Shown piece after piece: positions 13,635 through 21,964 of a DNA stretch of 41,192 bases. The position numbers were made by a program, and so were the translations under genes. Source of the DNA: Nitrospira sp. (GTDB lineage: Bacteria > Nitrospirota > Nitrospiria > Nitrospirales > Nitrospiraceae); contig JACOEH010000042.1 of the NCBI GenBank assembly GCA_024998685.1, forward strand, positions 1 to 41,192, given 5' to 3'. Every line of letters begins with the position of its first letter. Position 1 is the first letter of the stretch. Below the pieces are notes generated by a model. The model searched no databases and was not told where the DNA came from. It was given only the letters and a program-made list of their open reading frames with translations.

Positions 13635-14081
13635 ATGAAAGTGTCCAAACGTGCCACATACGGAATTATGGTAGCTGTTGATCTGGCGATACATGCACAT
13701 GAAACCCCGATTCAGGCGCGAGCCATCGCGAGACGTCATGGGATTCCAATACGTTTTCTCGAACAGGTTCTCCATGCAATGAAAAAGGCCGGGTTAGTAG
13801 AAAGCCAAAGGGGTGCCCAAGGGGGGTATCTCCTCACGTATGAACCAACGGCAATGTCGATCGCCGATATATTCGAGGCGTTGGAAGGGCCGGTCTTGTA
13901 TCGATCTGTCGGTCAACGGACACGTGATCGTCACGCGACCAAACCGGAACTGCTGTTAGATGATGTGTGGGAGCAGGTTCAGCAGGCGGAACGGAAAGTC
14001 CTCGAAAATGTGACCGTCGAACACTTGGCGATGCGTTTACGGACGATCGACGCTCAGCGCAATCCAATGTACCACATTTGA
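13635..14081 (+). CDS. Rrf2-family transcriptional regulator
   Basis: A 148-residue protein with the Rrf2 winged-helix fold: MKVSKRATYGIMVAVDLA, the HTH PIQARAIARRHGIPIRFLEQVL, the wing AGLVESQRGAQGGYLL and the SIADIFEALEGP helix. IscR and NsrR use three Cys in the middle to hold an iron-sulfur cluster; this protein has no Cys at all, so it is not a cluster sensor and is closer to CymR, the cysteine-metabolism repressor that works with CysK. It lies 41 nt upstream of the sulfate reduction genes and is likely to regulate them and itself. Effector or partner is unknown. Confidence 0.88.
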   Translation: MKVSKRATYGIMVAVDLAIHAHETPIQARAIARRHGIPIRFLEQVLHAMKKAGLVESQRGAQGGYLLTYEPTAMSIADIFEALEGPVLYRSVGQRTRDRHATKPELLLDDVWEQVQQAERKVLENVTVEHLAMRLRTIDAQRNPMYHI

Positions 14082-14122
14082 CTTAGAAGGCTCCTCTCGT
14101 GAGGAGGCAAGGAGATCGGTCT

Positions 14123-16612
14123 ATGAACCCAGTTGAATCCCTCCCTATCCCCAAAATTGTCACGAATCCGATTCCGCCGGCCATTTTAGAGGAAATAGAA
14201 ACCTTCGAGATTGAAGCCCTGCGAACATTGGCCGGAGAGATTTCCACCGATCTCTTCAAGCCGTTCCGCCTGCAATACGGCATATACGGCCAGCGTCAGC
14301 CTGGTGTGCAGATGGTCCGTATCAAGATCCCGTTCGGCGGCATCACCGCAAATCAGCTGCGACGTGTGGCGGAGCTCGCCGACCATTATGCGACCGGAGT
14401 CGGTCACGTCACGACAAGACAAGATATTCAGATGCACTTTGTGGAGCTCAAGGACGTGCCGAGCATCATGCGAGGACTAGCCGAAGTCGGCCTGACCACC
14501 AGGGAGGCCTGTGCCAACACAGTGCGGAATGTGACGGCGTGTCATTTAGCCGGCGTGTGCCAAGGAGAAGTATTCGATGTGACTCCGTATGCGAAGACAG
14601 TCGCGTATCATTTGCTGCGAAACCCCTTGAATCAAAGTCTGCCGCGAAAGTTCAAAATTGCGTTCTCCGGCTGCAAACATGACTGTGCGCTGACTCCCAT
14701 CCACGATATCGGTCTATTGGCCGTCAAACGAGCCGACGGAGAAATCGGCTTTCGAATGGTGGTAGGTGGTGGGCTGGGGTCCGCTCCGCGGATCGCTCAA
14801 CTTCTTCGTGACTTCACACCGATGGATGAGCTGATTCCCAGTATCGAAGCCGCTATTAAAGTCTTCGATACCCTCGGCAATCGAAAAAATAGAAACAAGG
14901 CCAGGATGAAGTTCGTGATCGACAAACTGGGATTTGACGAATTCAAACGGCGCTGGGAAGCAGCCTACGTCGCGATGGGACACGCACTTCCCAAAAATGA
15001 GCCTTTGACTCTGCTTCAACATCAGGATGCCCCCTCCCGGCTCATCATGCCGACGAGAAACGGGGTCGCAAATGAAAACAGAAATGGTAACGGTAACGGG
15101 GCTCATGCGATCGGCTACGAGACGCCGTTCGAGATGTGGAAACGGACCAACGTTGTGAAACAGAAGCAAGATGGATATGTCACGGCCGCGATCAAGCTGT
15201 TCATGGGGGACATTACGGCTGAACAGATGCTCTTCGTCGCCGATCTGGCTGAGCGTTATTCGAACGGCAATCTTCGCACCACGATCAATCAAAACCTGGT
15301 CATCCGATGGGTTCCTATCGATCAGATCCCGCACTTTTACGAGGATCTGATGTCACATGGATTGGCAGATCCCGGTGCGGAGCTGGTCGAAGACATTATT
15401 GCCTGCCCCGGCACAGATACATGCGGTCTTGGGATCACATCATCCAAAGGCCTTGCGCGAGCGATGGCTGAGGTGTTTCCCGCCGGCCGTGTTCCAGAAG
15501 ATCTTCAGGATGTGAGCGTGAAGATCAGCGGCTGTCATAACTCATGCGCACAGCATCACATTTCGACGATCGGGTTGCATGGAGTCGGAAAACGTCTGGG
15601 TGACCACGTCGCACCGCATTATGAATTGCATCTCGGAGGCTCGGTGAACGGCACGGCCAAGATCGGTCAGATGACCGTGAAGTTGCCGGCGAAAGCCGTA
15701 CCGGCGGCAATCTCTCATTTGATCGACGTGTACCGGCGCGATCGCCAAGCGAACGAGGATTTGTCAACATTCATTGCACGCGTCGGGAAGAGCAGGCTGA
15801 AAGACGAGTTGATCCCATACACCATCGTGCCGTCTTATGAAGAGGACCCTACGTTCTATTATGATTGGGAGGGTGAAGAAGAATTTATTCTTGAGGATCT
15901 TGGCCCTGGTGAATGTGCAGGCGGTGCGCTGGACATGATCGAAAACGGCATCCTGGAGGCCGATCAAGAGCTCTATCAAGCGAAGCTGCTCGTTGAAAAG
16001 CATCAGTATTCCGTGTCGGTGAACAAATCCTATCGGGCAGTGCTGGCTGCCGCTAAGGCAATGCTGGTAACAGAAGGACTGGAGCCATCGACGGACTCTG
16101 AAACGTTCATCGAGTTCGACCGCAGGGTGGCACAGAAAAGTGTCGTGCCGTCCGTCTATCGAGACCTGAGCAAGAAGGTCGGAGATTTGGGTCCGAAAGA
16201 AGCGTCGGCTGAATCGGCCCGAGAGAAGATGGCCTTTGCCAAGGGGTTTGTTGATGCTTGCCGCACGGCGACGGATCGGATGGGCAAGGACCTGAAGCTG
16301 TCAGCTATGGAAGAAGAAAAGTCTCCGGTCGCACCTGCGCCAGTTGAAACCAAACCTGTCGCTCCTGTTCCGACAGGTGCGCCTGTTTACGACTTGCGAG
16401 GCGTGGCATGCCCGATGAACTATGTGAAGACGAAGTTGAAACTGGAAATGATGGATGCCGGTGAACGGTTGGAAGTGTGGCTCGACGCGGGTGAACCGAT
16501 CAAGAACGTGCCGATGAGCCTTAAGAATGACGGACACCAGGTGCTGATCCAAGAGGCCTTGGAGCCGGAAGCGTCGCATTATCGGATTTTGGTCGAAAAG
16601 GTCGAAGGATAA
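14123..16612 (+). CDS. Siroheme nitrite/sulfite reductase with C-terminal TusA domain
   Basis: An 829-residue protein. Residues about 40-320 and 340-570 are two NiR/SiR halves (ferredoxin-like plus siroheme/Fe4S). Both halves carry a CX5C plus CX3C set: Cys140, 146, 184, 188 and Cys428, 434, 471, 475. In E. coli and plant enzymes only one half keeps it. The next segment (about 575-730) is helical and acidic at its start. Residues about 755-829 form a TusA-like domain with YDLRGVACPMNYVKTK (Cys763). In this operon it most likely reduces sulfite to sulfide with six electrons from ferredoxin or another donor, and the TusA domain may hold sulfur. Nitrite reduction is the alternative. I chose ATG 14123 because AAGGAG lies 8 nt upstream; a GTG at 14099 is less likely. 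Confidence 0.85.
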   Translation: MNPVESLPIPKIVTNPIPPAILEEIETFEIEALRTLAGEISTDLFKPFRLQYGIYGQRQPGVQMVRIKIPFGGITANQLRRVAELADHYATGVGHVTTRQDIQMHFVELKDVPSIMRGLAEVGLTTREACANTVRNVTACHLAGVCQGEVFDVTPYAKTVAYHLLRNPLNQSLPRKFKIAFSGCKHDCALTPIHDIGLLAVKRADGEIGFRMVVGGGLGSAPRIAQLLRDFTPMDELIPSIEAAIKVFDTLGNRKNRNKARMKFVIDKLGFDEFKRRWEAAYVAMGHALPKNEPLTLLQHQDAPSRLIMPTRNGVANENRNGNGNGAHAIGYETPFEMWKRTNVVKQKQDGYVTAAIKLFMGDITAEQMLFVADLAERYSNGNLRTTINQNLVIRWVPIDQIPHFYEDLMSHGLADPGAELVEDIIACPGTDTCGLGITSSKGLARAMAEVFPAGRVPEDLQDVSVKISGCHNSCAQHHISTIGLHGVGKRLGDHVAPHYELHLGGSVNGTAKIGQMTVKLPAKAVPAAISHLIDVYRRDRQANEDLSTFIARVGKSRLKDELIPYTIVPSYEEDPTFYYDWEGEEEFILEDLGPGECAGGALDMIENGILEADQELYQAKLLVEKHQYSVSVNKSYRAVLAAAKAMLVTEGLEPSTDSETFIEFDRRVAQKSVVPSVYRDLSKKVGDLGPKEASAESAREKMAFAKGFVDACRTATDRMGKDLKLSAMEEEKSPVAPAPVETKPVAPVPTGAPVYDLRGVACPMNYVKTKLKLEMMDAGERLEVWLDAGEPIKNVPMSLKNDGHQVLIQEALEPEASHYRILVEKVEG

Positions 16613-16627
16613 GGGATCTGATTCGCC

Positions 16628-17341
16628 ATGACCGTCAATGGACATTCCGAACTGATCGCAGAGCTCAAAGCCTTGAGCGCTTCGTTTGAGACGAAGCAGC
16701 CGCAAGATGCACTGACAGCCGCCATTGAACGATACGATAAGATCGTTCTGGCCTGCAGTTTCGGGGCCGAAGATGTCGTGCTTGTCGATATGGTCCACCG
16801 CATCAATCCCACGGTGCCGTTGTTCTATCTCGATACCGATTTTTTATTTCCTGAAACCTACGCCACGCGAAACCGAGTGATTGAACGATACGGTCTTCAG
16901 GCGGCGCAGGTTATCCAGGTGAAATCCTTGCTCACACCGGAGGCACAAGCGGAATCGTACGGCGAGGCCCTGTGGGTCCGAGATCCGGACCAATGTTGCC
17001 GGCTGCGGAAAGTCGAACCACTGGCCCGCGTTCTGCGAGGATACGACGCATGGATTACCGGAATCAGGCGTGATCAATCTCCATCCCGTGCCAATGCCGG
17101 GTTGATCGAGTGGGACCAGAAGTTTGAATTGATCAAGATTAATCCCCTGGCCCGATGGACGTCGACCGATGTGTGGACCTACATCAAGGTCTATGAAGTC
17201 CCGTACAACCCCCTGCATGATCAGAATTATCCCAGCATCGGCTGCACCTACTGCACCACCCAAGTGGCACCTGGCGATGATCCTAGGGCCGGTCGCTGGA
17301 AGAATTTTGCCAAGACCGAGTGCGGACTACACAAGTCGTAA
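16628..17341 (+). CDS. cysH: APS reductase (thioredoxin-dependent, Fe4S4 type)
   Basis: The 237-residue protein of the PAPS/APS reductase family has a PP-loop-type nucleotide-binding region (ACSFGAEDVVLVDM), the LDTDFLFPETY motif, and GIRRDQSPSRA. Two Cys pairs, Cys123-Cys124 (DQCCRLRKVEPL) and Cys206/Cys209 (GCTYC), bind the 4Fe-4S cluster that marks APS reductases; E. coli PAPS reductase lacks them. The C-terminal ECGLH (Cys232) is the catalytic Cys that forms a thiosulfonate with sulfite. It therefore reduces APS to sulfite and AMP with thioredoxin. Located 15 nt after the sulfite reductase gene and 1 nt before the next gene. Confidence 0.93.
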   Translation: MTVNGHSELIAELKALSASFETKQPQDALTAAIERYDKIVLACSFGAEDVVLVDMVHRINPTVPLFYLDTDFLFPETYATRNRVIERYGLQAAQVIQVKSLLTPEAQAESYGEALWVRDPDQCCRLRKVEPLARVLRGYDAWITGIRRDQSPSRANAGLIEWDQKFELIKINPLARWTSTDVWTYIKVYEVPYNPLHDQNYPSIGCTYCTTQVAPGDDPRAGRWKNFAKTECGLHKS

Positions 17342-17342
17342 C

Positions 17343-18383
17343 ATGTCGATCCAAAATCTCCTCGCCAAGATCGCCAAGGGCCCGAAAGCTTCCAAGGATC
17401 TCACATGGGATGAGTGCAAACAGGCGATGAAGGCGTTGATTGAAGGTGAGGCCACACCGGTGCAAGTGGGAGCTTTTCTTATTGCCATGCGATTCAAGAT
17501 GGAATCGGTTACCGAGTTGGCGGCCCTCACGGCAGCGGCTCGGCAATATGTGCTTCCTCTCACTGTCTCGCGGGACTTGGCCTTGGTCGATGTCCCGACC
17601 TATGCCGGAAAGCAGGACACATTTCATGCGACTATTGCCGCGTCCATTGTTGCAGTTGCAGCCGGCGCTGCAGTCTTGATGCACGGCTATGACGGCATTC
17701 CTGGCCGTCCGGGCAGCGCCGGAGTACTGAAAGCCTTGGGTATTCCAGTTGATGCCGATCCTAAGCTGGTTTCCGAAGAAGTGAATAGGAAGGGCTTCGC
17801 CTACCTGGATATCGGACTGTACCACCCGCCCCTCTATCGATTTTTGGAGATGCGCCAAGAGCTCGGAGTCAGAAATGTGTTTCATCCGATTGCCAGACTC
17901 CTGAACCCGGCTCGGGCGGCGGTGCAAGTCGTGGGGTTGACCCATCCGCCGCATTTTGAAAAAACAGCCGAAGCCTTGCGAATCCTCGGGTGTCGGCGAG
18001 CATTGGTGATTCGTGGAGTTGAGGGGGATCCAGAATTATCCGTTTCGATGATGACAAGGGTCTTGGAATTGAGAGACGAGCGCATTACTCCGCTCGGTGT
18101 GGCCGCGAAAGACTTTGGATTGACATTCGCCTCTTCGCGCGAGATGGCAGGATTTCCTCCCGATCAGCGGGAAAGGGAGGCCGATTTGATCCGGCGAATT
18201 CTTCGAAACCAGGTTCAGGGCGGATCTCGAGATTGGGTGCTGATGAATGCGGCTATGTTGCTCTATGCGGCGGGCAAAGGGGTGTCTCTATCGGCCTGCT
18301 TTCCGGCGGTGCGCGCGGCGCTTGATGGAGGCGCTGCAGGGCGCAAGCTCGCGGAATTGGTGCGGCAGCCGGTCACAGCGTAA
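17343..18383 (+). CDS. TrpD2/YbiB-like glycosyltransferase-family-3 protein
   Basis: A 346-residue protein with the fold of anthranilate phosphoribosyltransferase: N-terminal helices (about 1-75), MHGYDGIPGRPGSAGVLKALG where TrpD has KHGNR-SSxxGSAD, ELGVRNVFHPIARLLNPARA, and VIRGVEGDPELSV. The GTGGDG glycine-rich PRPP loop is replaced by YAGKQDTFHAT, so anthranilate activity is doubtful. E. coli YbiB, a TrpD2 protein, binds nucleic acid and is not a metabolic enzyme. ATG at 17343 follows cysH by 1 nt. Embedded between cysH and cysD, it is probably co-transcribed with sulfate assimilation, which is unexpected for TrpD. Tryptophan genes are absent nearby. Confidence 0.8.
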   Translation: MSIQNLLAKIAKGPKASKDLTWDECKQAMKALIEGEATPVQVGAFLIAMRFKMESVTELAALTAAARQYVLPLTVSRDLALVDVPTYAGKQDTFHATIAASIVAVAAGAAVLMHGYDGIPGRPGSAGVLKALGIPVDADPKLVSEEVNRKGFAYLDIGLYHPPLYRFLEMRQELGVRNVFHPIARLLNPARAAVQVVGLTHPPHFEKTAEALRILGCRRALVIRGVEGDPELSVSMMTRVLELRDERITPLGVAAKDFGLTFASSREMAGFPPDQREREADLIRRILRNQVQGGSRDWVLMNAAMLLYAAGKGVSLSACFPAVRAALDGGAAGRKLAELVRQPVTA

Positions 18384-18401: not shown

Positions 18402-19199
18402 ATGAAACACCTTCGGCAACTTGAAGATCAAAGCGTCTACATCCTTCGTGAAGCTTACAAACACTTCGACAATCTCGCCATGCTCTGGTCCATGGGCAAG
18501 GATTCAACGGTACTGCTATGGTTGGCGCGCAAGGCTTTCTTTGGGCATGTGCCGTTTCCATTACTCCATGTCGATACCAGCTATAAAATCCCAGCGATGA
18601 TCGAGTACAGGGATCGTCTTGCGCGGGAATGGCGGTTGAATCTGGTGGTGGGCCAGAACAAAGAAGCCTTGGCGGCAGGGATGAATCACACAATGGGCCG
18701 TGTCGTCTGTTGCACGGCGCTGAAGACGAACGGTCTCAAGCAACTGTTAGAGAACAAAGGCTACACCGGCGTCATTCTCGGCGTTCGTGCGGATGAAGAG
18801 GGAACGAGAGCCAAGGAACGCTATTTCTCTCCACGGGATAAACATGGGGACTGGGATTTCCGAGATCAACCGCCTGAGCTCTGGGATCAATATAAGACAA
18901 CCTTTCCGCCCGGCACTCATATACGCATTCATCCGTTGCTGGATTGGACCGAGATCAATATTTGGGAATACATCAAACTTGAGAATATTCCCTTCATCGA
19001 TTTGTATCTCGACAAGGGAGATGGTACGCGCTATCGCAGTTTAGGCTGCGCACCCTGCACCTCGCCGATCAAATCCACCGCGAAGACCGTGGATGACATC
19101 ATCGAAGAGCTTCGCCATACCACCATAGCTGAACGATCGGGACGGGCACAAGACGAAGGACGAGGAATGGAGTTGTTAAGGAAGGATGGTTATATGTGA
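18402..19199 (+). CDS. cysD: Sulfate adenylyltransferase subunit 2
   Basis: The 265-residue catalytic subunit of ATP sulfurylase makes APS from sulfate and ATP. It has the PP-motif [65 protein letters not shown] and a C-terminal [20 protein letters not shown]. The complete C-terminal [21 protein letters not shown] is typical but slightly shorter than in E. coli. It precedes cysN with a 4-nt overlap or a 2-nt gap, depending on the cysN start, so the two subunits are made together. Confidence 0.95.
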
Positions 19200-21043
19200 T
19201 CATGAGCCAGACGACCAAACCATCCGAAAACCTCAACATCGTGATCGTCGGTCATGTGGATCACGGCAAGTCCACCCTATTGGGACGGCTCTATGCCGAC
19301 ACCGGCTCACTGCCCGACGGCAAGTTGGAAAAAGTGCAAGCGATCTGCCAGCAACAGGGGAAGGAATTCGAATATGCTTTTCTCTTCGACGCCTTTCTCG
19401 AAGAGCAGGAGCAAGGGATTACGATCGATACGGCTCGCACCTTTTTCATGTGGAAAGGCCGGCAATACATCATCATCGATGCTCCGGGGCATAAGGAGTT
19501 TCTGAAGAACATGATTTCCGGCGCCGCGCGTGCCGAGGCGGCATTGCTGCTCATCGACGCGTTGGAAGGAGTGAAGGAACAGTCGAAGAAGCACGGCTAC
19601 CTCTTATCGCTCCTGGGAGTTCGGCAGTTTGCGGTGGTCGTCAACAAGATGGATTTGGTCGGTTACCGGCAGGATGTGTTCGACGGGATCGAAAAAGAGT
19701 ATCGAGAATTTCTGGGGCAGTTCAAAGCCATGCCGTCGCAGTTTATTCCGGTAAGCGCCAAGCTGGGCGACAACATCGCCAACCGCAGCAAACAGATGTC
19801 GTGGTACAGCGGCCCCACCGTCCTGGAAACCCTCAGCGTTTTTCAGAAGGAAGCGGCCCGTTCAGAACAACCCCTTCGACTGCCCGTGCAGGACGTCTAT
19901 AAGTTCGATGCACGCCGAATCATCACCGGCCGCATTACCGCAGGGCGCCTCAAAGTCGGCGATCACCTCGTCTTTTCGCCATCCAACAAGCGGGCCAACA
20001 TCCGGACGGTGGAGGCCTTCAATATCGAGCCGCAACCGACCGAAGGGCAGGCGGGGCAATCGATCGGTGTCACGCTCGATGAACAAATTTTTGTCGAGCG
20101 TGGCGAAATCGCCTCGCATCAGGAACAGTTGCCCCTTGTCTCCACGGCTTTTCGAGCCAACTTGTTTTGGCTCGGCAAGAAGCCATTGGAAAAAGGGCGT
20201 AAATATCTCTTGCGCGTGGCGACCAAAGAAGTGGACTGTGAGGTTGCAACCATCCATCGGATCATCGACACAATGGACCTCGCGCAGCAGCAAGGCAGCC
20301 ATACCATCGGCAAGAACCAAGTGGCCGAGCTGACCCTGCGCACGAAAATCCCGGTCGCATTTGACCTATCGGCATCGTTCGAGACAACCGGTCGCTTCGT
20401 TCTGGTGGATGAATACGACATCGCGGGCGGGGGGATCATCACTGAACTGGTCCATGACGACCAGGAGTTTCTCCGTGAAGAGGCGAGGCGACGAGACTTT
20501 GCATGGGTGAAGGGTGAAGTTACGGTCGAGGACCGCGCGCAACAGTACGGCCATCGGGCGGCAGTCGTTCTGATTACCGGAGGGCGGCACACCGGCAAAT
20601 CGTTTTTAGCCAGAAAGCTCGAAGGACGCCTCGTGGCGGATGGGCGCCATGCCTACTTATTGGACGGCGAGAATCTGCGCCGTGGGCTCGATGCCGATCT
20701 CAGCGAAGAAGAGCGTGGACAGACGACGGAAATGGCACGACGCTACGGCGAAGTGGCAAGGCTCCTTACCGACACAGGTCTCATCGTCGTCTCGACCACC
20801 AATCCCTTTGGCCTGGCTTATCGCGAAGCCTCGCAGGCGATCAGGACTCTCGTGCATCCTGCGCCCGTCATTGCCGTCCACATGAGCAAGTCCGAAGAAG
20901 AACCGCCGCCGAATACGGATGTGGTCCTCTCTGGTCCTACCGATTTCAACGCGGCAACTGCTCGAGTCCTGGACGAATTAAAACGCCGAGGCGTCTTAGC
21001 CCAGGCCATCGGAGCCAAGCCGATTTTCCAATATTCGATCTAG
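19196..21043 (+). CDS. cysN: Sulfate adenylyltransferase subunit 1 with degenerate APS-kinase-like domain
   Basis: A 615-residue fusion. Residues about 12-440 are CysN, an EF-Tu-like GTPase with [17 protein letters not shown] and NKMDL motifs that drives ATP sulfurylase. Residues about 455-615 resemble CysC (APS kinase): P-loop [11 protein letters not shown] and [12 protein letters not shown]. Yet the DRxEN segment after DLGFS is replaced by [11 protein letters not shown], and the lid with RDPKGLYKKA is missing, replaced by a short EEEPPPN. The kinase is probably inactive. This fits because CysH here is an APS reductase. Start may be GTG 19196 (overlapping cysD) or ATG 19202; the latter gives MSQTTK. 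End is followed by 186 nt without a clear terminator. Confidence 0.92.
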
Positions 21044-21229: not shown

Positions 21230-21964
21230 ATGAAATTTGTATGCCTTAACTGCGAAACCTATATGAGTCTCGAGAAAGTGGAGAAACCGGAGGAGGGATC
21301 TCTCGGAGTCTTTTTCGCCTGCCCTTCGTGCAACGCGAAGTTCTCAATGGTGACCAATGCCGGCGAAACGAACATGATGAATGCTTTGGGGTTGAAGCTG
21401 GGAGCGCGGGCTGAGCCCGCGGCCTCTATGGAGGGATTGCGAGCACTTGCAGAAAATGGTCAAGCAACTCCTGCTATAGATAAGCCAACTCAGGGTGCAT
21501 CGTCTGTGTCCTCTGCAACTGCCTCTCCTGCTAAGGCTGGGGAAAAGACGAGCGGTTGTCCGTTCTCGGCGATGGTCGCTGAAATGGGGTTGACTGCCAG
21601 CGGCAAGCCAGGAAACGGTACGAGCACAAGTTCTTCGGAATTCACCTGGACCGCCGATGCCAAGGACAAACTCGATCGCCTTCCAGTCTTCGTAAAGCCG
21701 ATGGTCCAAGCAAGCGTCGAGACCTATGCACGCAAGCATGGGTTTAAGACCATCACGCTGCAAGTGATGGACGACTCGAAGAATGATTCGCCCAACGGCA
21801 TGACATGGTCACGGGAGGCCGAACAACGGCTCGATAATATCCCGGACTTCATCCGTCCCATGGCGCGAAAAGAAATCGAGCGGCTGGCAAAGGAACGCGG
21901 AGTGTCGACCATCACTGAGCAGGTGATGGACGAGGCGAAGGACAAGTTCATGAAGTTCATGTAG
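21230..21964 (+). CDS. Zinc-ribbon protein with two PCP_red domains
   Basis: A 244-residue protein of three parts. Residues 5-34 hold two CxxC pairs (Cys5/8 and Cys31/34), a likely zinc ribbon. Residues 45-135 are a low-complexity Ser/Ala/Thr linker with GCPFSAMVAEMGL in it. Residues 140-185 and 192-240 are two copies of the PCP_red domain known from the C-terminus of the B subunit of dark protochlorophyllide reductase: FTWTADAKDKLDRLPVFVKP and MTWSREAEQRLDNIPDFIRP, each followed by a helix and an IT(L/E)QVMD strand. No chlorophyll genes are present, so the role is unknown. AGGAG lies 5 nt before ATG. A hairpin follows the stop. Confidence 0.8.
   Translation: MKFVCLNCETYMSLEKVEKPEEGSLGVFFACPSCNAKFSMVTNAGETNMMNALGLKLGARAEPAASMEGLRALAENGQATPAIDKPTQGASSVSSATASPAKAGEKTSGCPFSAMVAEMGLTASGKPGNGTSTSSSEFTWTADAKDKLDRLPVFVKPMVQASVETYARKHGFKTITLQVMDDSKNDSPNGMTWSREAEQRLDNIPDFIRPMARKEIERLAKERGVSTITEQVMDEAKDKFMKFM

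Follow-up and report, generated by a model that had tools for sequence, protein, structure and literature searches.

A Nitrospira sulfite reductase with cluster motifs in both halves and a fused TusA domain, predicted to hold a single siroheme

How many sirohemes are held by a sulfite reductase in which both halves carry a full set of cluster cysteines, and where does the sulfur go when a sulfur carrier closes the same chain? The question is raised by an 829-residue open reading frame (ORF) in a 41,192-nucleotide stretch of Nitrospira sp. DNA (contig JACOEH010000042.1 of assembly GCA_024998685.1), the whole of which is called the window here; its product is called the window sulfite reductase (SiR). 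The ORF listing offers a longer start, GTG at 14099, but ATG 14123 is preferred because a ribosome-binding-like AAGGAGA directly precedes it. The initial annotation proposed two siroheme-Fe4S centres with direct hand-over of sulfide or persulfide to the carrier. All nine cysteines that it named are present in the translation: CX5C plus CX3C in the first half (C140/C146 and C184/C188), the same pair of motifs in the second half (C428/C434 and C471/C475), and Cys763 of the carrier domain.

The favoured explanation, considered somewhat probable, is an assimilatory SiR with one siroheme-Fe4S centre and a second cluster, its reduced sulfur going by way of the fused TusA to a ubiquitin-like carrier ending in GG. 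Sulfite would be reduced at the single siroheme-Fe4S centre, probably with ferredoxin electrons, the siroheme being held by R66, R99, R135, K176 and K178 of the first half against the cluster of the second. The first half would contain another [4Fe-4S] cluster and no catalytic siroheme; most likely this is an ancestral cluster that was kept and now serves to relay electrons or to stabilise the core. Once reduced, the sulfur would reach Cys763 of TusA, perhaps via a tail cysteine, Cys598, and would leave on the GG carrier for cysteine synthesis. The cysteine quartets, the one-sided basic pentad, the tail cysteine, the pairing with TusA, the operon and the carrier cluster are read from the DNA, and cluster occupancy, electron donor and any transfer of sulfur, with its direction, are what we infer from them.

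In a single chain, Pfam finds two NIR_SIR and two NIR_SIR_ferr matches, a TusA domain at residues 756-826 (PF01206, 63.4 bits against a cut-off of 28.6) and, in the linker at 611-657, a HEPN match (24.4 bits against 22). The two SiR halves align with each other at an hhalign E-value of 2.2e-25, so their likeness is not due to chance. An AlphaFold model was confident over most of the chain, with a mean predicted local distance difference test score (pLDDT) of 86.2. Its best structural match was Mycobacterium tuberculosis (Mtb) NirA, to which residues 23-560 fit with VIA Z 39.7 and a root-mean-square deviation (rmsd) of 2.4 over 476 aligned residues, while residues 602-721 matched a HEPN protein (VIA Z 17.1) and the last 75-80 residues fitted TusA-type domains (VIA Z 11.2-13.7; 12.2 to the E. 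coli TusA chain 3lvj_C). Structure prediction, suggested earlier as a check, thus found the two-repeat SiR, HEPN-like and TusA domains; the C-terminal TusA stands, and the joining segment, described before simply as helical, is real and can be specified as HEPN-like because of the Pfam match in the linker.

The window SiR scores below the NCBIfam cut-offs of CysI (135 against 756.6 bits), Sir (126.6 against 731.5) and NirA (292 against 523), the NirA model being nevertheless its best-scoring family, and below those of dsrB (76.8 against 341.5) and dsrA (32 against 392.9). Because it falls under the CysI, Sir and NirA equivalog cut-offs, it is a separate subfamily of the siroheme reductase fold. 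In a search of 59 Nitrospirales genomes, near end-to-end matches were found in 48 and matches in pieces in seven; the other four genomes, 67-88% complete, matched only by a separate TusA or TusA-like protein. The SiR-HEPN-TusA fusion is the usual sulfite reductase of Nitrospirales. A TusA domain arising from chance read-through or assembly error was ruled out by the 48 near end-to-end matches and the lack of internal stops.

The family was surveyed in 130 rows taken from the best 80 loci of one genome scan, 40 stretches from relatives and other loci, the remaining rows being three further search loci, five plasmid loci and the window itself. Eleven paralogues, namely the ten of L072-L081 and the second ORF in L131, were set aside, and subtraction of five rows with identical SiR regions from the remaining 119 left 114 unique family rows, a sample rich in Nitrospirota. 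A tree was made from 101 of these, after removal of 13 near-duplicate or truncated rows, with the 11 paralogues and E. coli CysI. It is a quick tree with SH-aLRT support only, in which 27 of 110 forks are open, so deep branch order is not fixed; the rows nearest to the window SiR are uncultured Nitrospira.

According to excerpts of PMC10229431, basic residues of one protomer or half bind the siroheme, which lies against the cluster of its partner. In the first half of the window SiR these residues form an RRRKK pentad, each member of which is present in all 114 rows. The second-half equivalents of MjFsr R355, R388, R423, K460 and K462, assigned by motif and spacing, read A356, N389, E423, D463 and S465, with no letter conserved in the family, and on this point the claim of two siroheme-Fe4S centres was not supported. 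The same reading of E. coli CysI gives RRRKK without cysteines in the N half and.NEKV or.NEHV with four cysteines in the C half (a dot marks an unaligned position), and E. coli CysI has one siroheme. DsrA reads R, T or G, R, K, K with four cysteines; DsrB reads.RSHR over its four alignable positions, with three cysteines plus threonine, and the DsrB site keeps a structural siroheme. Since the second pentad reads ANEDS against RRRKK, close to E. coli CysI, two sirohemes per chain appear unlikely, and one siroheme with two clusters is the better prediction than two siroheme centres.

Two siroheme-Fe4S centres in one chain, either one catalytic and one structural as in DsrA or both active, are accordingly given a low probability. 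The full cluster motif of the first half, its fit to the single-repeat SiR domain of Fsr (7np8, VIA Z 22.1, rmsd 2.2, 232 aligned residues) and the pairing of R, R, K, K with four cysteines in DsrA all speak for them, and so do basic residues elsewhere in the second half: R385 (106 of 114 rows), K467 (K, R or H in 114), K358 (K or R in 92) and R395 (80). Furthermore, 46 of 114 rows have R or K at position 465, serine here, which leaves the family's second pentad with some basic character. Against this stands the pentad itself, in which no residue is conserved and which differs from the DsrB reading while resembling the C half of CysI. Two sirohemes were dropped as the leading view with this reservation about position 465; a differently held, non-catalytic second siroheme is possible. 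Judged by its motifs, the window SiR is intermediate, with two cluster motifs as in DsrAB and one siroheme pocket as in CysI.

The first-half quartet is complete in 83 of the 114 rows, absent from 22 and partial in nine; if the four cysteines varied independently, about 40 complete and 0.3 empty rows would be expected, although kinship among the rows inflates this contrast. The quartet is therefore not peculiar to the window protein, being complete in relatives from many phyla: Nitrospirota, Nitrospinota, Methylomirabilota, Acidobacteriota, Binatota, Chloroflexota including SAR202, and Myxococcota. Partial or empty rows occur in those phyla too, as in Methylomirabilota (L125), Acidobacteriota (L162), Myxococcota (L136) and Chloroflexota (L134, L137, L169). 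None of the four cysteines was seen in any Bacteroidota row or in either alphaproteobacterial CysI, and every Nitrospirales row read has all four. Fused aSirs are described in excerpts of PMC10229431 as having kept one siroheme-Fe4S site and lost the first-half cluster motif. The earlier statement that textbook enzymes lack the motif in one half holds for E. coli CysI, the plant nitrite reductases (NiRs) shown and Mtb NirA, but not for some bacterial NirA-type proteins (L079-L081), which keep C140, C184 and C188 and have lost C146. Parsimony counts eight changes of quartet state on the 101 rows with the motif columns excluded from the tree, a count from which direction is not readable; loss from a two-cluster ancestor is the direction inferred, because it is implausible that all four ligands were regained at homologous places.

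Might the first-half cysteines bind no [4Fe-4S] cluster, serving as structural thiols, as a zinc site or as a relic? This is thought rather improbable. Spacing does vary, the Nitrospinota rows having mostly CX2C in the second cysteine pair and several Acidobacteriota rows a gap longer than CX3C, and two or three of the four cysteines are kept in several lineages, making up the nine partial rows. Against it, position and spacing match those of the active cluster; moreover, 22 of the 31 incomplete rows lack all four cysteines together, and all Nitrospirales rows read keep four. Among the variants, the Nitrospinota-type L104, L113, L126, L127, L129 and L132 replace CX3C by CX2C (GGCxGC) and have a fused TusA, and in L052 and L053 (family f9), L138, L153 and L177, which belong to different lineages, the second and fourth cysteines become S/A and then H, with the first and third kept. 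Two-repeat SiRs of 916-1097 residues from other Nitrospirota (L072-L078) have partly lost the set; in two of them, L072 and L077, NirB-like flavin, rubredoxin-C and BFD domains stand ahead of the SiR.

TusA is fused in 58 of the 114 rows, in Nitrospirota and Nitrospinota, always with a CPxN[YF] motif, and 56 of these 58 have the full first-half quartet. The second SiR of the Binatota genome G331 (L196, 842 residues) is also TusA-fused, and a search of 59 genomes of that phylum gave four SiR-like matches beside a TusA match (G389, G351, G362, G357). Family f7 encodes TusA in an ORF of its own, about 8-50 bp 3' of SiR-HEPN, at four of four distinct loci read (L061, L065, L066, L068; L117 repeats L061 and was not counted). 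A loss of TusA in f7 was thus ruled out, TusA being the next gene; no TusA ORF was found within the locus stretches of L057 and L130. Three of the four Binatota-phylum matches were read and proved to be single-repeat SiRs (L191, L192, L193), each followed by a TusA 47-55% identical to that of the window, with the motifs CPMNF, CPFTF and CPINF, respectively. Downstream of TusA in L191 and L193 lie a ubiquitin-like carrier, ending in AGG plus two more residues, a NIL-type protein (NIL Pfam checked in L191) and a cysteine synthase, with ThrC-like genes on the other side; L192 has ThrC-like and carrier genes, and the L191 SiR has ferredoxin domains by Pfam. The best evidence for cooperation between reductase and TusA comes from this single-repeat pairing.

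In sum, a survey of fusions, one of the checks first suggested, showed that the SiR-TusA pairing is real and recurrent, in fused, split and single-repeat form. Sulfur hand-over to the carrier, as first suggested, is supported by this context of fusion, split genes and operons, a support that is genomic and not chemical. The competing idea is that the SiR releases free sulfide and that TusA, either a passenger or supplied by IscS, serves tRNA or molybdenum cofactor thiolation; it is held to be possible but the less probable course. The genome encodes an IscS 61% identical to E. coli IscS, so TusA could be fed without the reductase, and it has stand-alone TusA copies (CPYNF on contig C51, CPMP on C76); many relatives, besides, have no fused TusA. 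The passenger idea is opposed by the fusion, the split neighbours and the single-repeat pairing in carrier and cysteine-synthase operons, and by the motif, which is CPxN[YF] in every SiR-linked TusA read but that of L192. The window TusA has CPMN and not CPxP, the canonical TusA motif. The stand-alone CPYNF copy (L184, on C51) has genes of haem or siroheme type, named by eye, a few kb downstream. TusA persulfide transfer in a Dsr system is documented in excerpts of PMC13293266. A search limited to open-licence PMC papers identified no description of an SiR-TusA fusion, and the excerpts of PMC10504309, PMC13293266 and PMC10839748 make no mention of one.

The second half is immediately followed by a GEC-A/S motif, which contains Cys598 and occurs in 111 of 114 rows; those without it are L128, which is cut by the contig end before the tail, and the two alphaproteobacterial CysI. 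Twenty relatives end at GECAx. DsrC has a C-terminal cysteine arm, and by likeness to it a relay role is proposed for Cys598. No similar tail cysteine was found in the single-repeat L192 and L193, and L191 has a cysteine near its end. A bolder version, considered possible though not likely, is an SiR without sulfide release, in which sulfur would pass from the one siroheme to the DsrC-like Cys598, then to Cys763 and to the thiocarboxylate of a ubiquitin-like carrier that serves cysteine synthesis, the first-half cluster being what survives of the second half of a DsrAB-like ancestor, now turned to electron transfer. An aSir arginine and a CX5C/CX3C active cluster are tied to full six-electron reduction in excerpts of PMC10229431, and the window SiR has this arginine (R99) together with the four substrate-binding basic residues R66, R135, K176 and K178. 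Because Arg99 and CX5C/CX3C go with six-electron reduction, sulfur is more likely handed over at the sulfide level than as a DsrC-type intermediate.

The SiR gene opens an assimilatory sulfate-reduction operon, preceded by an Rrf2/CymR-like regulator and followed by cysH, a TrpD-like gene, cysD and cysN-cysC (Table 1), and, within the reach of the stretches, most Nitrospirales loci show this order or a near variant (L088). Some deeper Nitrospirota families have a Sat-type neighbour instead, and others have none of the genes asked for. For CysJ, two weak partial matches were found in the genome, none over the cut-off, and a ferredoxin donor is therefore likely. A nitrite reductase in place of a sulfite reductase is considered very improbable. 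The idea draws on Mtb NirA as the best structural match and on the NirA model as the best NCBIfam score, though below cut-off, and nitrite reduction is a side reaction of many SiRs according to excerpts of PMC10229431. It is opposed by the cysH/cysD/cysNC operon, or the Sat-type neighbour in deeper families, and by separate weaker NirA-like matches in some relatives and none in the genome itself.

The presumed destination of the sulfur is encoded elsewhere in the genome, on contig C13 (L209, 71500-86500), in the order cysteine synthase, E1, ThrC-like, GG carrier, E1, JAB. The cluster also holds a ThiS-like gene; the cysteine synthase scores over the cysK cut-off, the JAB protein is of the Prok-JAB type, the 90-residue carrier ends in VPAIAGG (IPAIAGG-like), and both E1 proteins match only ThiF in Pfam, with no rhodanese match. 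Mycobacterial CysO/CysM/Mec+ is a working analogue of such carrier-based cysteine synthesis. Operons with ThiS/MoaD-like proteins, JAB, rhodanese-less E1, SirA, PAPS (3'-phosphoadenylyl sulfate) reductase and sulfite reductase were described by Iyer et al. (2006), who proposed the carrier as the end point for the sulfur of sulfate or sulfite and noted a ThiS-sulfite reductase fusion in two actinobacteria (excerpts of PMC1779556). The window protein looks like a hard-wired form of this sulfur-flow idea. Among 48 scan or plasmid family loci outside Nitrospirota and Nitrospinota, all on short stretches, five carry carrier-type genes: CysK and JAB in L131; CysK, carrier and E1 in L133; JAB, E1, carrier and CysK in L139; CysK in L153; and a ThrC-like gene in L141. 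CysK was also seen in the stretches of L196 and L199, and carrier-type genes were seen in none of the ten paralogue loci L072-L081.

Several observations weigh against the favoured explanation, among them the basic position 465 and the IscS already mentioned. The tail is modelled with low confidence, at a pLDDT of about 56-61, both in the window protein and in the short Myxococcales relative L147, which ends in GECAT. Bacteroidota keep the tail cysteine without the first-half quartet, and no carrier match was found in G334, the one tail-bearing Bacteroidota genome tested. Family f9 (L052, L053) keeps TusA with two of the four first-half cysteines lost, so TusA need not require the quartet. Carrier, E1, JAB, ThrC-like and cysteine-synthase genes were found in no stretch of a fused Nitrospirota or Nitrospinota locus, and in the Nitrospira genome itself the carrier cluster is on a different contig from SiR-TusA. 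The carrier as a marker of TusA fusion was rejected as not discriminating: it occurs in 36 of 37 TusA-fused genomes, 14 of 17 unfused ones (five of them f7) and three of four with single-repeat SiRs, G113, G118, G134 and G264 being called fused and G207 unfused by ORF length only.

How does the protein compare with known systems? E. coli CysI, plant SiR/NiR and Mtb NirA share its two-repeat fold (VIA Z 28.4-39.7), and CysI shares RRRKK in the first half and the CX5C/CX3C active cluster in the second; compared with these assimilatory enzymes, the window SiR adds the full first-half quartet, the GEC-A tail, the HEPN-like domain and TusA. The DsrAB/DsrC system is alike in having cluster motifs on both sides of a pseudo-dimer and a carrier with a reactive cysteine that serves the reductase. 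Unlike DsrAB, the window SiR is a single chain in which no inserted ferredoxin domain was found by Pfam; its second pentad is lost, Arg99 stands where DsrA has Thr, the active cluster has CX5C...CX3C and not the DsrB-type CXnCCX3C, and the carrier is TusA and not DsrC. The first half resembles the one repeat of Fsr and of L191-L193, the latter also having a TusA gene, but those are single-repeat proteins, whereas the window SiR has two repeats and no F420H2-oxidase or ferredoxin Pfam domain. Excerpts of PMC10229431 describe an F420 domain in Fsr besides ferredoxin domains.

A further precedent is row 4e in the excerpts of PMC1779556, where sulfite reductase, SirA/TusA, PAPS reductase, rhodanese-less E1, JAB and a ubiquitin-like carrier come together in one organism; here, by contrast, TusA forms one chain with a reductase that has two cluster motifs, and the carrier genes are clustered on another contig. 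These parts thus lie on two contigs in this genome, and several of them occur together in L133, L139, L191 and L193. Within the TusA/SirA family the window domain is typical in its PF01206 score, its fold and its N-terminal CP motif, and differs, with the fused rows, in having CPxN[YF] instead of CPxP. The protein is unusual in combining two cluster motifs and one siroheme pocket with a conserved tail cysteine and a fused carrier, and the fused form with two cluster motifs appears to be new beside the prediction of Iyer et al. (2006).

A broad clade that keeps the second cluster motif, and in which its state changed several times, provides living intermediates between DsrAB-like and textbook enzymes and allows the function of the lost cluster to be tested directly. 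With TusA fused to the reductase, it becomes testable in organisms such as Nitrospira and Nitrospina whether assimilation can pass protein-bound sulfur to cysteine synthesis and so avoid free sulfide; in this Nitrospira, sulfur for cysteine may be handed on protein-bound.

Table 1. Positions in the window of the sulfite reductase gene, its domains and the genes around it
Feature	Position	Strand	Basis
SiR-HEPN-TusA fusion protein, 829 aa	14123..16612	+	translation, Pfam, upstream AAGGAGA
First SiR half, residues ~55-278; R66, R99, R135, K176, K178; C140, C146, C184, C188	14285..14956	+	
Second SiR half, residues 335-545; active-site cluster C428, C434, C471, C475	15125..15757	+	
Second SiR half, degenerate basic pentad A356, N389, E423, D463, S465	15125..15757	+	
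Tail motif GPGECAG, residues 594-600, Cys598	15902..15922	+	conserved
HEPN-like helical domain, residues 602-721	15926..16285	+	Pfam, structure match
TusA domain, residues 756-826, CPMNY motif, Cys763	16388..16600	+	Pfam, structure match
Rrf2/CymR-like regulator, upstream; at most Nitrospirales loci	13635..14081	+	profile matches
CysH, APS (adenylyl sulfate)/PAPS reductase	16628..17341	+	profile matches
TrpD-like glycosyltransferase-family protein; retained within the operon at many Nitrospirales loci	17340..18383	+	profile matches
CysD, sulfate adenylyltransferase subunit	18402..19199	+	profile matches
CysN-CysC fusion	19205..21043	+	profile matches

Two minor observations concern neighbouring sequence and a relative. 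Just beyond the sulfate operon, at 21230-21964 on the plus strand, lies a gene whose 244-residue product matches PCP_red (protochlorophyllide reductase 57 kD subunit) twice, an odd occupant of this place. The fused SiR-TusA of L071, read from stop to stop, has about 430 extra N-terminal residues with no Pfam match in them.

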